Positions 14,590 to 18,561 of a DNA stretch of 42,234 nt are shown here, piece after piece. Within the stretch, counting starts at the first letter, position 1, and each line of letters begins with the position of its first letter. The position numbers and the translations under genes were made by a program. Source of the stretch: an uncultured Lachnospiraceae bacterium (GTDB lineage: Bacteria > Bacillota > Clostridia > Lachnospirales > Lachnospiraceae); assembly GCA_902800325.1 (NCBI GenBank), contig CADCDW010000009.1, positions 1-42,234 of the forward strand. The letters are read 5' to 3'. The notes under the pieces were generated by a model. The model was given only the letters and a program-made list of their open reading frames with translations, did no database searches and was not told where the DNA came from.

Positions 14590-16527
14590 TCAGTTATCTG
14601 TATCATCAGGGAAAATAAACTTTATAGTCTCTATATCAGATTCTTTTTTTTCTTCCATTTTGCTATTTTTATCTTCTGCAATACCGGAAGTCTCAGATTC
14701 TTTTTGATTGGATTGTTCACGGTTTTTATCCTCATCTGCACTTACCGTCATCTGTTTTTCAGTATTATTTTTATCTTCTTCCTTTTTCTTAAAGCTCATA
14801 ATACTGATATTTCGGTCTTCCTGCTTGGTTTCTTCCTGCATATTGGAAAGATCAAAGCTGGCCGGGATACTATGACTTGGTTCTCTGTCTTCCTCATATG
14901 CCTTTCTTTCTTCATCATATACAGATTCTTTAGATACATCTGACGTATCTGCCTGCTCTCCTTTGGCTTTTCCTGATAACTTCACACTTTCAGGTTCTTT
15001 TAACGACTCATCTGATTCTTCTTCATCTTCTTCATCATTTTTAGCTTTTAGCATAGTTACAAGAGTTATGATTCCTATAAACAGTATAAACGCCAAAATT
15101 CCAAATACTATGGCAATTATTCCCAAAGTCTTTCTACTGAAAAAGCCTTCATCCTGCGGTACTACCTTTTCTATCACTACAGGTTCGGCAGGAGTTGCCA
15201 TAGTTTGGGTTGCAACCTCTTCTGTATTTTCTGCTATATCTCTTTCCACATATCTTAAAAATGCTTTTTCCCTGGCATCATACCAGTAAAAGCCTTCATC
15301 TCCGGCTATATTTATCGCATATACAAGATATATGTTTTTATCATTTATATCATTTGATTTATATACTGTAACCTTTTCACCTATTCCTCCTATGTCAAGC
15401 TCTGTTTTTTCAAATCCATCAGGAATATCAACTCCCTCCGGAGCCTCAATTATAACATACCTGTTAAACTCAGATGAATATTCTCTGTATGGTATGAAGC
15501 TTTCCTTGTCCTTATCATATATAAACCACTCTAATCCACCGTCTTCATCCGCATTTTCATCTTTAGACTCAAGGCAGACCAAGATAATTTTTTTGTTGGG
15601 AGACTCAAAAGCAAGCACTTCCCAGTCCTTGTATTCGGTTGTTATCTCTTTAAAACCTTCGGGAATTTCAAGCCCGTTACTGCTTTGAACAAAATCATAT
15701 TCTACACCATCTATGGTTGTTTTGGCATCACCGAGCACTTCACCGGCCGCAACACTAAGTGTATAGACCTTAACCGCTCCGTTTTCAGCAGTAACTGTAA
15801 CAGTTACTGTGTTGGCTCCCGGTTCTATAAGACCTGCACCTCTAACTGAGGTAGATGCTTTTTCATCCTCTGCAACCGCACTTACAACCATACTTGTAAC
15901 ATCTTCATCTACCTGAACAAAATATGATGTAGTAGATGGTGAAAATGCAGGTTCAAGCGTTCCCGGAGAAATCTGCAAGCTCTTTAAATTGCAATTTGAT
16001 GAGCGGTCATCCTCCTCTGTTGTAGCATCATCATTTTTGTCGCTGTTATTATTGTTATTATTGTTGTTATTGTTACTGTTATTTCCATTATCATTATTTG
16101 AAGCTGTAGCAACCGTAACACTTGCTCCTCCATGTGATATGGATATAGGATTATAATCAATATCATAACATTCTGTTCCGCTTGTGGAGATATAGCACGA
16201 GCCATTTCCTATAGCGGTAAAGGAAAGTGTTGTTGAACCTGCTCCCGTTCCTACAAGTCTTATAGTTCCGCCACCGCCATTGGCCTGAGCGGATCCGCTG
16301 CCCGAATTATACTGAAGTACACTTGCATCATATGAAACATATATATCATAAGCCGAAATATCCGAGCCGTTTACACTTACAGTAACACTTACTCCTCCTC
16401 CTATACTTGTCGAACCGGTAGAAAGACCTATAGTTACTGATGCAGCCGCCTTTGAATCAAGTGTTCCAAAACTAAAGCACACAATTATCGTCAAAAACAA
16501 CGTCAAAATCTTCTTAATACTTTTCAT
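14590..16527 (-). CDS. Membrane-anchored surface protein with cohesin and cadherin-like domains
   Basis: The protein (645 residues from the ATG at 16527, which has GGAG at the right distance) has a signal peptide. Numbered from an upstream in-frame ATG at 16539, the signal ends near residue 32. Next comes a cohesin-like beta sandwich (33-145, with ISAYDIYVSYDASVLQY typical of cohesins), an Asn-rich linker (148-165), and a cadherin-like beta-sandwich domain (184-263, of the type in PF12733). Then follow about 200 residues of unassigned beta-rich sequence, one membrane helix (about 472-497) and a 150-residue acidic and Lys-rich cytoplasmic tail. Cohesins bind dockerins, and the adjacent upstream gene on the same strand encodes a secreted enzyme with a dockerin. 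A role as surface receptor for that enzyme is inferred. Confidence 0.8.
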   Translation of the reverse strand: MKSIKKILTLFLTIIVCFSFGTLDSKAAASVTIGLSTGSTSIGGGVSVTVSVNGSDISAYDIYVSYDASVLQYNSGSGSAQANGGGGTIRLVGTGAGSTTLSFTAIGNGSCYISTSGTECYDIDYNPISISHGGASVTVATASNNDNGNNSNNNNNNNNNNSDKNDDATTEEDDRSSNCNLKSLQISPGTLEPAFSPSTTSYFVQVDEDVTSMVVSAVAEDEKASTSVRGAGLIEPGANTVTVTVTAENGAVKVYTLSVAAGEVLGDAKTTIDGVEYDFVQSSNGLEIPEGFKEITTEYKDWEVLAFESPNKKIILVCLESKDENADEDGGLEWFIYDKDKESFIPYREYSSEFNRYVIIEAPEGVDIPDGFEKTELDIGGIGEKVTVYKSNDINDKNIYLVYAINIAGDEGFYWYDAREKAFLRYVERDIAENTEEVATQTMATPAEPVVIEKVVPQDEGFFSRKTLGIIAIVFGILAFILFIGIITLVTMLKAKNDEEDEEESDESLKEPESVKLSGKAKGEQADTSDVSKESVYDEERKAYEEDREPSHSIPASFDLSNMQEETKQEDRNISIMSFKKKEEDKNNTEKQMTVSADEDKNREQSNQKESETSGIAEDKNSKMEEKKESDIETIKFIFPDDTDN

Positions 16528-16570
16528 AATAATCTCCATTCTGTTTTTTATGACAAAATCATTATAAATA

Positions 16571-16663
16571 CTAATTAATGGTTTCTGTGCCGACTATATG
16601 TCTAATTAATGGTTTCTGTGCCGACTATATGTCTAATTAATGGTTTCTATGCCGACTATATGT
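16571..16663. repeat. 31-bp tandem repeat, three copies, over a gene's 3' end
   Basis: A 31-bp unit beginning CTAATTAATGGTTTCT and ending GCCGACTATATGT occurs at 16571-16601, 16602-16632 and 16633-16663. The third copy is the coding end of the dockerin enzyme, including its TAG stop and the codons for HIVGIETIN. The two downstream copies are identical to each other and differ from the coding copy at one base (GTG against ATG). Confidence 0.97.
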
Positions 16664-18561
16664 CTCTGAATCTTTACTATATCGAGTACGGATACCTTTC
16701 CGTCGCCATTTACATCACAATTCATATCCATTGAATCAAGACCTACGATAACTCTTTGTATCTTAACTATATCGAGTACGGATATCTTGCCGTCTCCATT
16801 TATATCACCCTTGGTTCCGCCGACATTGGTCTGTGTTGAACCACCTGACATATCTTCTCCTATGGTTTGTGAGCCTGCAGCAGCATTGCCGCGAACAACC
16901 GTAAGCGTATAGGTCTTAACTGCACCGGTTTGAGCTATAACATTAATCTTAATATAATTTGTTCCTTCTATAAGATTTATCGTTCCCGTTCCTTTTACTG
17001 TTGATGTAGATACAACCGATGCGGCAGAAACATTTATCGAAGAAACTGAAGAATTAACTATAAGCGAATAATCAGTTACGTCATTTACCGCAAATGTAGG
17101 AGTAATTGTATATCCTGTTATATCAAGCGACTTAAGCCAGTTGTTGGGATTTCCCGAATCCGCCGGTTTTACACATGCTCTCTCCGGCATATTTTTATAC
17201 ACCGGTATCTTAAATACCATGGTCGAATCAAGCAGGTTATTGGCTTTATATGCCCTGTAATTTGTCTGACTTTCGGTTGTAGGTGACTGGATATTGGACA
17301 TATACTGATGATTAAACAGACTTCCTGTATATGTAACATTAAACTTCTGTGTATATAATGTATCCTGACCCCTTTGGATATAAGATGCTCCAAGATACTG
17401 AGCACCTCCTATAATACTCTTTGACACAGTATTCCAGGGTCTTCCGTAACTGCCTGACTGTGATGCCCAAAATAAACCTTTTTCAACCGGTGCCCCGTTG
17501 GCTGTATCAAAAGCACCGATATTATAATAATTATATATGCCCGGATAATTGGTGCTTGTGCCCTTGGCAGCCACTCCGGCGGTATTGCCCATCTCAAGCT
17601 TGATTCTTGATGCAATATGATATGGACTGACTCCGCTTTGCGCAGCCGCATCCATTATTATATCCGAATATTGTTTGGATTCGCCCGGAGGTGTTGCATT
17701 GGTCATAAATGAACCCCTTAATATAGCTTCAACGCCTATCTTATTTTGAGCACCTTCCTGATATGAAAGACTTTCAAATACAAATACAAAATTTTCATAG
17801 AGATATGTACGTGGGTCAATATAATATCTTACGAGATCATCCGATGCAGCAAACCAAACCTTTCCGTCAAACGGCGACCATACATTTGATGCCGGATTAT
17901 AACCAACCGTTATACTTCTCCAGTTATAATGCGGTGCTGACGAAGCACCATATATAAGATTCTTAATCTGTCCCTTTTTATTGACTTCATTGGCAATAAG
18001 CGTATTCCAGTCAATTCCTGTTTGTACTGCCTTAAACTGCCAATTCGGATGAAGAGCATGTATATCCCTAAGCAAAACCTTATAACTTTCAGGGAATCCC
18101 TCTGCGGCAAGCTGAGCTTCAAAATCCGAAGAACCAAGTAAAGTACCATCACCTTCTACCAATTCATCATCTTCGGCAGTATTGGTATTATCTGTAACTG
18201 TTGTATCTGCATTTGTTGAATCTGTAGAACCATTATTTAGTGTAACAAACTGTGAAGAAACATACCCTGTATATGTGGCACCGTTATATACAACAGACAC
18301 CTTGTACCACGCTGAATTGGTTGTATCCAGAACTGTAAGTTCCTGCCCACCATTAAGCTTAATGCCTTTACCATTCTCATCTGTTACAGCGTTACCGTTT
18401 GGTTCAACCCTGAAATTGACATTGGTTACTCCTTCACTAATCTTGGCAGTTGTTTCGGCATGAGATACCATTGAACCACCTTGTCCAAAACATAAACTGT
18501 TGAACAATAAAACTAAAATCAATAAAAAATATATATTCTTTCTTTTTTTCGTAATTATCAT
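16633..18561 (-). CDS. Secreted glucosaminidase with SH3b, cadherin-like and dockerin domains
   Basis: This secreted peptidoglycan hydrolase has 642 residues. It has a signal peptide (to about 36), an SH3b cell-wall-binding domain (about 40-108), a Thr/Asp/Asn linker, and a glucosaminidase domain of the LytD/endo-beta-N-acetylglucosaminidase type (about 150-460). That domain carries YYIDPRTYLYENFVFVFESL and a likely catalytic Glu in IASRIKLEMGN. A cadherin-like beta sandwich follows (about 476-560), then a C-terminal type I dockerin (about 587-637). The dockerin has two calcium-loop repeats, DINGDGKISVLDIVKIQR and DVNGDGKVSVLDIVKIQR. The enzyme would cleave glycan strands of the wall. The dockerin suggests docking on a cohesin; the downstream neighbour carries one. 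Its last 31 bp are triplicated. Confidence 0.88.
   Translation of the reverse strand: MIITKKRKNIYFLLILVLLFNSLCFGQGGSMVSHAETTAKISEGVTNVNFRVEPNGNAVTDENGKGIKLNGGQELTVLDTTNSAWYKVSVVYNGATYTGYVSSQFVTLNNGSTDSTNADTTVTDNTNTAEDDELVEGDGTLLGSSDFEAQLAAEGFPESYKVLLRDIHALHPNWQFKAVQTGIDWNTLIANEVNKKGQIKNLIYGASSAPHYNWRSITVGYNPASNVWSPFDGKVWFAASDDLVRYYIDPRTYLYENFVFVFESLSYQEGAQNKIGVEAILRGSFMTNATPPGESKQYSDIIMDAAAQSGVSPYHIASRIKLEMGNTAGVAAKGTSTNYPGIYNYYNIGAFDTANGAPVEKGLFWASQSGSYGRPWNTVSKSIIGGAQYLGASYIQRGQDTLYTQKFNVTYTGSLFNHQYMSNIQSPTTESQTNYRAYKANNLLDSTMVFKIPVYKNMPERACVKPADSGNPNNWLKSLDITGYTITPTFAVNDVTDYSLIVNSSVSSINVSAASVVSTSTVKGTGTINLIEGTNYIKINVIAQTGAVKTYTLTVVRGNAAAGSQTIGEDMSGGSTQTNVGGTKGDINGDGKISVLDIVKIQRVIVGLDSMDMNCDVNGDGKVSVLDIVKIQRHIVGIETIN

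Follow-up and report, generated by a model that had tools for sequence, protein, structure and literature searches.

The window analysed here is a stretch of 42,234 nucleotides from an uncultured Lachnospiraceae bacterium (assembly GCA_902800325.1, contig CADCDW010000009.1). It contains two genes on the minus strand, A and, 93 bp further downstream, B (Table 1). The product of gene A begins with a signal-peptide-like sequence and ends in a type I dockerin, while that of gene B begins with a signal peptide followed by a domain modelled as a cohesin fold. From this layout and its recurrence in relatives, we propose that A and B probably constitute a two-gene envelope module in which A, a glucosaminidase docked on B through dockerin and cohesin, trims glycan strands near their site of synthesis.

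Table 1. Positions of the features of genes A and B in the window
Feature	Position	Strand	Basis or remark
Gene A, secreted SH3_3 - glucosaminidase - PF12733 - dockerin protein, 642 aa	16633..18561	-	
SH3_3 domain, A residues 69-106	18244..18357	-	25.3 bits, slightly under the cut-off of 27
SagB/Atl-type glucosaminidase domain, A residues about 146-460	17182..18126	-	Profile span, NCBIfam SagB, PDB matches
Glu323 codon of A, aligned with catalytic Glu116 of AtlA-gl	17593..17595	-	Alignment
PF12733 cadherin-like beta sandwich, A residues 477-557	16891..17133	-	Pfam
Type I dockerin, A residues 584-635, two near-identical repeats	16657..16812	-	Pfam
Gene B, putative membrane receptor: cohesin - Asn linker - PF12733 - duplicated beta region - TM (transmembrane helix) - acidic tail, 649 aa	14590..16539	-	
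Cohesin-fold domain, B residues about 33-143	16111..16443	-	Below-cut-off Pfam score, relatives, Foldseek
Asn-rich linker of B	15991..16101	-	Sequence; pLDDT under 50 at residues 148-171
PF12733 domain, B residues 185-263	15751..15987	-	Pfam, 36.3 bits (exceeds cut-off)
Membrane-proximal beta region of B, two diverged repeats	15247..15714	-	Profile, model
Predicted TM of B	15067..15123	-	Mean hydropathy 3.08 over 19 residues; model helix 469-504
Acidic, predicted disordered, presumably cytoplasmic tail of B, about 158 residues	14593..15066	-	
31-bp tandem repeat, 3.1 copies, 98% match	16571..16665	not assigned	Crosses the end of gene A and reaches into the A-B spacer

Domain composition of the two proteins

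The identification of gene A as coding for a secreted glucosaminidase, made in a first-pass annotation, is borne out. Its catalytic domain matches AtlA (6fxo), SagB (6fxp, 6u0o) and AtlE (4pi7) in the PDB, its sole NCBIfam match is the SagB glucosaminidase (49.3 bits, E 3.6e-13), and Glu323 aligns with E116 of AtlA, named as the catalytic glutamate in excerpts of PMC7170848. This residue is listed as invariant in our alignment A1 of 66 A rows, which includes one row lacking a recognised glucosaminidase and some truncated rows, gaps presumably being uncounted. Because the SagB score falls below the equivalog cut-off of 425, we classify A from its sequence as a glucosaminidase of the SagB/Atl type, not as SagB itself. 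The Pfam scan of the window A protein gave no match to the glucosaminidase family PF01832. At its C-terminus the proposed type I dockerin with two calcium-loop repeats was recovered well over the Pfam cut-off (PF00404, 37.9 bits against 22.9); both loops read D-x-N-x-D with D12, giving two F-hand repeats. A related cadherin-like beta sandwich had been described in both proteins, and PF12733 does indeed score over its cut-off in each (27.9 bits in A, cut-off 24.2), the two domains sharing 35% identity over the matched stretch (E 5e-9).

The N-terminal domain of B had been called cohesin-like. By Pfam rules alone it would go undetected, since PF00963 stayed below the cut-off of 24.1 both when the protein was scanned (16.1 bits) and when the genome was searched (20.6 bits). 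Among the 92 B proteins collected below, 83 have a cohesin domain by iterated profile, and these were scanned with Pfam, the other nine (L074, L088, L097, L101, L106, L108, L109, L123 and L124) being left out; PF00963 matched 38 of the 83 at E<=0.01, the best at 4.3e-8. AlphaFold models of the B cohesin, built with relatives, gave a confident beta sandwich with best PDB matches to 2w1n, 2jh2 and 2xdh. In Foldseek, ranks 1-6 for the first model were all cohesins, followed at rank 7 by an adhesin domain (9ifr); for the second model ranks 1-4 were cohesins (TMt up to 0.73) and ranks 5-6 the multidomain BbgIII (7nit). On the Pfam matches in relatives and the top Foldseek ranks, the N-terminal domain of B is, as modelled, a cohesin fold; the earlier description thus stands by fold and relatives, and not by the score of the window protein itself.

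The membrane-proximal beta region of B gave no Pfam match and is internally duplicated, with 27% identity between the two copies across 79 columns (pairwise E 2e-4). B is predicted to have a single TM and matches no CAAX-protease-like membrane family in Pfam. That B is membrane-anchored with an acidic tail agrees with this TM and with the 47 D/E and 25 K/R residues of the tail, whose cytoplasmic location is suggested by the signal peptide and single TM.

Recurrence of the pair and counts per genome

When B was searched against 200 genomes of the family, 110 gave a match, the window's own included. Regions were fetched for 94 of the other 109 (15 were left out), making the sample conditional on a B-like match, and a separate related-locus search with B returned one locus. 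The 94 loci, the window and L034 make up 96 sources, in which genes were typed by iterated profiles. A B-type gene is present in 92 of the 96, and in 66 of these 92 an A-type gene lies upstream on the same strand. Spacing between the A stop and the B start has a median of 22 bp and is <=150 bp in 61 of 65 pairs (window not counted). The dockerin is carried by A in 36 of the 66 pairs (35 by Pfam at E<=1e-3), one of the pairs (L042) having a dockerin and no recognised glucosaminidase, and the cohesin profile was found in B of 65. Adjacency thus recurs in related genomes of many genera, so that the case which the first-pass annotation named as refuting, two genes that are never neighbours in homologous genomes, does not apply.

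At the class level, a profile search matched 100 of 196 genomes, many at the PF12733 part alone, and returned 20 loci; exclusion of the window genome and its genus left 18, two from the same family and 16 from outside it. The open reading frame (ORF) directly upstream of B contains a dockerin in 14 of the 18 (12 of the 16 outside the family), and 12 of those 14 B proteins (10 of 12 outside) have a cohesin. A glucosaminidase was seen in 10 of the 18, within flanks of 1.5 kb only, the upstream ORFs mostly running off the locus. All four loci where no dockerin was found belong to family f44, and their cohesin was likewise undetected, perhaps reflecting one event. On a beta-region tree of 89 of the 92 B proteins, dockerin presence among the pairs changes at least six times, both in the careful and in the quick tree; because many branches are weakly supported, gain and loss are indistinguishable.

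The window assembly (2.77 Mb, 97% complete) contains one dockerin and one cohesin match, and these are the adjacent genes A and B. It does not display a cellulosome, in the sense of a scaffoldin with several cohesins accompanied by several dockerin enzymes. Since some relatives possess many dockerins (26 in G098, 21 in G140 and 29 in G181), the pair could be conceived as belonging to a cellulosome-like complex or as left over from one; we regard this as highly improbable in view of the single dockerin and single cohesin of the window genome and of an enzyme of the peptidoglycan glucosaminidase type.

Whole-genome counts were made in the 200-genome family sample (dockerin E<=1e-4, cohesin E<=0.01). 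Exactly one dockerin was detected in 49 genomes, 32 of which are among the 36 with a dockerin-bearing pair; in one of these 32 (G125) the dockerin reported lies elsewhere. Exactly one Pfam dockerin and one Pfam cohesin were present in 27 of the 36. The cohesin sits in B in 26 of these 27, the exception being G129 with a cohesin elsewhere, and the dockerin sits in A in all 23 for which a place was reported (22 of them among the 26); in the other four (G016, G044, G055 and G096) it was too weak for a reported place. The remaining nine genomes fall into overlapping categories, with more than one dockerin in four (G030, G051, G073 and G130), no cohesin at the threshold in five (G050, G051, G089, G110 and G122) and more than one cohesin in three (G030, G125 and G130). 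At these thresholds, then, A and B hold the sole dockerin and the sole cohesin of many genomes, and most of the relatives with the arrangement give no indication of a cellulose-degrading complex of the kind for which this docking pair is best known. Over all 200 genomes, 58 had both domains, 13 a dockerin only, 36 a cohesin only and 93 neither (Fisher 2e-13, relatedness uncorrected).

Docking, its alternatives and the wider receptor family

In the arrangement that we propose, A would be exported and would cleave glycan strands at N-acetylglucosamine. Through a calcium-dependent, one-to-one contact between the C-terminal dockerin of A and the cohesin at the membrane-distal end of B, an otherwise soluble enzyme would be held on the outer face of the membrane. 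Below the docked enzyme the linker, the PF12733 domain and the duplicated beta region would form a stalk, succeeded by the TM and by the acidic tail, which may exert some control. The likely purpose would be to cut or trim strands near the site of synthesis, as SpdC is thought to do for SagB. We place moderate confidence in the docking of A to B and less in the nascent-strand role. The first-pass annotation had likewise held the hydrolase to be retained by the cohesin; adjacency and the genome's only Pfam cohesin and dockerin speak for this part of it, and the further implication that the cohesin exists for the dockerin proved too narrow, as described below.

The dockerin itself has a suggestive anatomy. 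At positions 10, 11, 17 and 18, whose numbering and recognition role follow the cellulosome literature, the window protein has V10, L11, Q17 and R18 in both repeats, which are thus nearly symmetric. Over 36 dockerins, repeats of the same protein have a mean BLOSUM score at these four positions of 3.66, against 1.47 across proteins, and none of 5000 permutations scored as high. The other helix positions together are equally symmetric (3.19 against 1.82), so that the symmetry is helix-wide and involves nearly all positions. Loop 1 has the full set of calcium ligands 1, 3 and 5 in all 36, and loop 2 has it in 22. The repeat symmetry is consistent with a two-fold recognition surface under selection, as would be expected of a type I dockerin with dual binding. 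Since the symmetry is no weaker at the remaining helix positions, it might alternatively stem from concerted evolution of the repeats. Asymmetric repeats were noted in L053, L059 and L062, and in L093 the dockerin match falls within the glucosaminidase domain of A and not at the C-terminus.

Several results weigh against docking as proposed, beginning with the sub-threshold Pfam score of the window cohesin and the conditional nature of the sample, both given above. A and B are in the same frame, so that a natural read-through places the dockerin, a linker of ~60 residues (with the B signal peptide) and the cohesin on one chain. AlphaFold predicted this chain with good domains (pLDDT 86.6) and no convincing docking (pTM 0.51); judged on these two scores, the model is compatible with an interface as well as with none. 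Co-evolution was investigated by a partial Mantel test on 29 of the 36 pairs, with L055, L093 and L112 (incomplete or odd), L109 (no cohesin) and three further pairs in which one of the six domains is missing excluded. With the glucosaminidase and beta domains controlled for, dockerin and cohesin distances correlate weakly (partial r 0.20, p 0.014); partial correlations were also obtained for dockerin-beta (0.175, p 0.0045), glucosaminidase-cohesin (0.29), cadA-cohesin (0.33) and glucosaminidase-beta (0.53). The signal being weak and not specific, dockerin-cohesin co-evolution was discarded as support. To these points are added the cohesin profile in B of all 30 dockerin-less pairs, the lack of any Pfam dockerin in 24 of those 30 genomes, and the nine B genes, among 26 without a neighbouring A, that follow a gene of the LCP (LytR-CpsA-Psr) family by alignment, four of them Pfam-confirmed.

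Because dockerin-less pairs keep the cohesin, dockerin binding is not its only role in the family, and the rule that a cohesin is kept only with a dockerin was rejected there, joint non-detection being confined to f44. Since, moreover, paralogues of B follow LCP-type genes, B belongs to a wider family of envelope receptors in which docking by dockerin would be one mode. A plain comparison of mean identities gave varying values and no clear pattern of relaxed cohesin evolution in the dockerin-less groups.

The cohesin-like domain of B might then be a stalk or bind another ligand, such as wall glycan or another protein, with the dockerin of A binding the wall or an unseen partner. The main conserved cohesin positions are the same in B proteins whose neighbour is an LCP-type protein or an enzyme with or without a dockerin, and the complex prediction is weak, as this explanation would have it. 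We consider it improbable, given that 26 of the 36 dockerin-pair genomes have no other Pfam cohesin (E<=0.01) and that in f44 the dockerin and cohesin are undetected together (4 of 4 loci, one family). Another explanation, to our minds also unlikely, is that the association of A and B depends chiefly on their related PF12733 domains or on some other surfaces, and that the contact of cohesin with dockerin is secondary or has been lost in many lineages. It is favoured by the presence of PF12733 in B at 61 of 66 loci behind A against none of nine behind LCP-type genes (Fisher 1.6e-8, relatedness uncorrected) and by the 30 pairs that stay together without a dockerin; however, PF12733 is widespread, many class-level matches of the B profile covering that part alone, and once the other domains are accounted for, cadA and cadB distances are uncorrelated (partial r 0.07, p 0.26). 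We retain dockerin-cohesin docking as the probable link for the dockerin-bearing pairs.

The dockerin-less A proteins form two classes. In the first, 15 A proteins possess 2 to 9 SH3 domains, and B usually lacks a long tail: it is <60 residues in 13 of the 15, with a median of 15 residues against 144 in the dockerin class. Most of these SH3-array systems match only about half of the B beta-region profile. The 15 A proteins of the second class have no more than one SH3 each, and one of them is truncated at a contig end; an insertion splits the enzyme domain in 12 of the 15, and in 9 of the 14 intact ones a GGSNVTIVP-like C-terminal strand, recognised by eye, follows a Gly/Ser-rich linker in place of the dockerin (L046, L049, L054, L058, L077, L078, L084, L095 and L111). 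A long tail, through which the first-pass annotation would couple wall cutting to the cell interior, is not peculiar to the dockerin class: that of B is >=60 residues in 14 of these 15 loci, as it is in 32 of the 36 loci with a dockerin; of the other four, one is cut short by a contig end. None of the 36 dockerin-bearing A proteins has two or more SH3 domains, against 15 of the 30 dockerin-less ones (Fisher 5.8e-7). A pairing of dockerin loss with SH3 gain is suggestive only: with 64 of the 66 pairs on the tree and supported branches alone used, three of four independent comparisons agree and one shows no difference (sign test p 0.25).

Three or more of the 26 B genes without a neighbouring A lie at contig ends. 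The A catalytic domain was found elsewhere in seven of these genomes and nowhere in 19 (E<=1e-10). The B paralogues behind LCP-type genes (L081, L082, L090, L115, L116, L121, L125, L126 and L128) are devoid of PF12733. Perhaps B founds a class-wide receptor family that arranges wall enzymes on the membrane through exchangeable connectors, namely a private cohesin-dockerin pair in many lineages, wall-binding SH3 arrays or the GGSNVTIVP-like strand in others, and elsewhere LCP-type partners instead of the glucosaminidase, its tail providing the cytosolic contact; we offer this only tentatively. Lone dockerins in non-cellulosomal Clostridia would, if it holds, mostly be tethers of wall enzymes.

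Relation to known systems and minor features

In excerpts of PMC10581084, SagB is membrane-associated and the membrane protein SpdC, a CAAX protease homolog, scaffolds it for the cutting of nascent strands in Staphylococcus aureus. The likeness is that a membrane protein holds and orients a SagB-type glucosaminidase, a part that B would take here as the counterpart of SpdC; the two systems differ in that the putative link here is dockerin-cohesin and B is single-pass, whereas SpdC is CAAX-protease-like. Excerpts of PMC6403190 describe dockerin-bearing wall hydrolases of the Ruminococcus champanellensis cellulosome, for which the term 'lyticome' is suggested; these share with A a dockerin on a peptidoglycan hydrolase, but the acceptor there is a cellulosome scaffoldin and here one cohesin on a TM protein, with no other dockerin. 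The nearest solved folds, also non-cellulosomal, are cohesin-like modules of Clostridium perfringens (2jh2, 2w1n and 2vo8), which according to their entry titles reside on glycoside hydrolases, in contrast to a TM receptor beside a wall enzyme. The C. perfringens glycoside hydrolases with such modules act on host glycans. The Archaeoglobus fulgidus cohesin (2xdh, Foldseek rank 3) is likewise a non-cellulosomal cohesin fold, though archaeal, and is not known to be linked to a wall enzyme.

The Hungate1000 paper (PMC6118326, in excerpt) regards Clostridiales with few dockerins and no cohesins as most likely non-cellulosomal. Our comparison, which is of genomes other than the Hungate set, suggests that some such lone dockerins partner a cohesin scoring below the Pfam cut-off, as in the window. 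In a non-exhaustive literature search including excerpts of PMC2914790, PMC6118326, PMC5814915, PMC6403190, PMC7170848 and PMC10581084, the A-B pair was not found described. What appears to be new is a dedicated one-to-one pairing seated on a membrane receptor, together with how widely it occurs and how it is exchanged for other connectors. Were docking to occur as proposed, cohesin-dockerin contacts would have a housekeeping role in wall growth in many Clostridia without cellulosomes, which would help to account for lone dockerins in non-cellulosomal genomes and would furnish natural, divergent one-to-one binding pairs for study or engineering. Membrane control of a SagB-type enzyme would also become testable beyond staphylococci.

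Among the minor features, B tails often finish in an acidic-aromatic motif such as DDDFEFIDLD (examples are L062, L054 and L126). A regular expression written after the tails had been viewed matched 37 of the 71 intact tails that have >=40 residues, but just 8 of the 32 from the dockerin class; the tail of the window B terminates differently. The tandem repeat starts in the last codons of A, with the consequence that pieces of the dockerin end recur out of frame. A promoter scan gave 17 sites against 18.5 expected, and a terminator scan one against 2.6 expected, the sole terminator-like site lying inside B on the plus strand and none in the A-B spacer. Read from the protein starts, the gene downstream of B in L006 and L008 is glutaminyl-tRNA synthetase-like, the same as in the window, and in L010, L011, L025, L057 and L069 it is ClpC-like.

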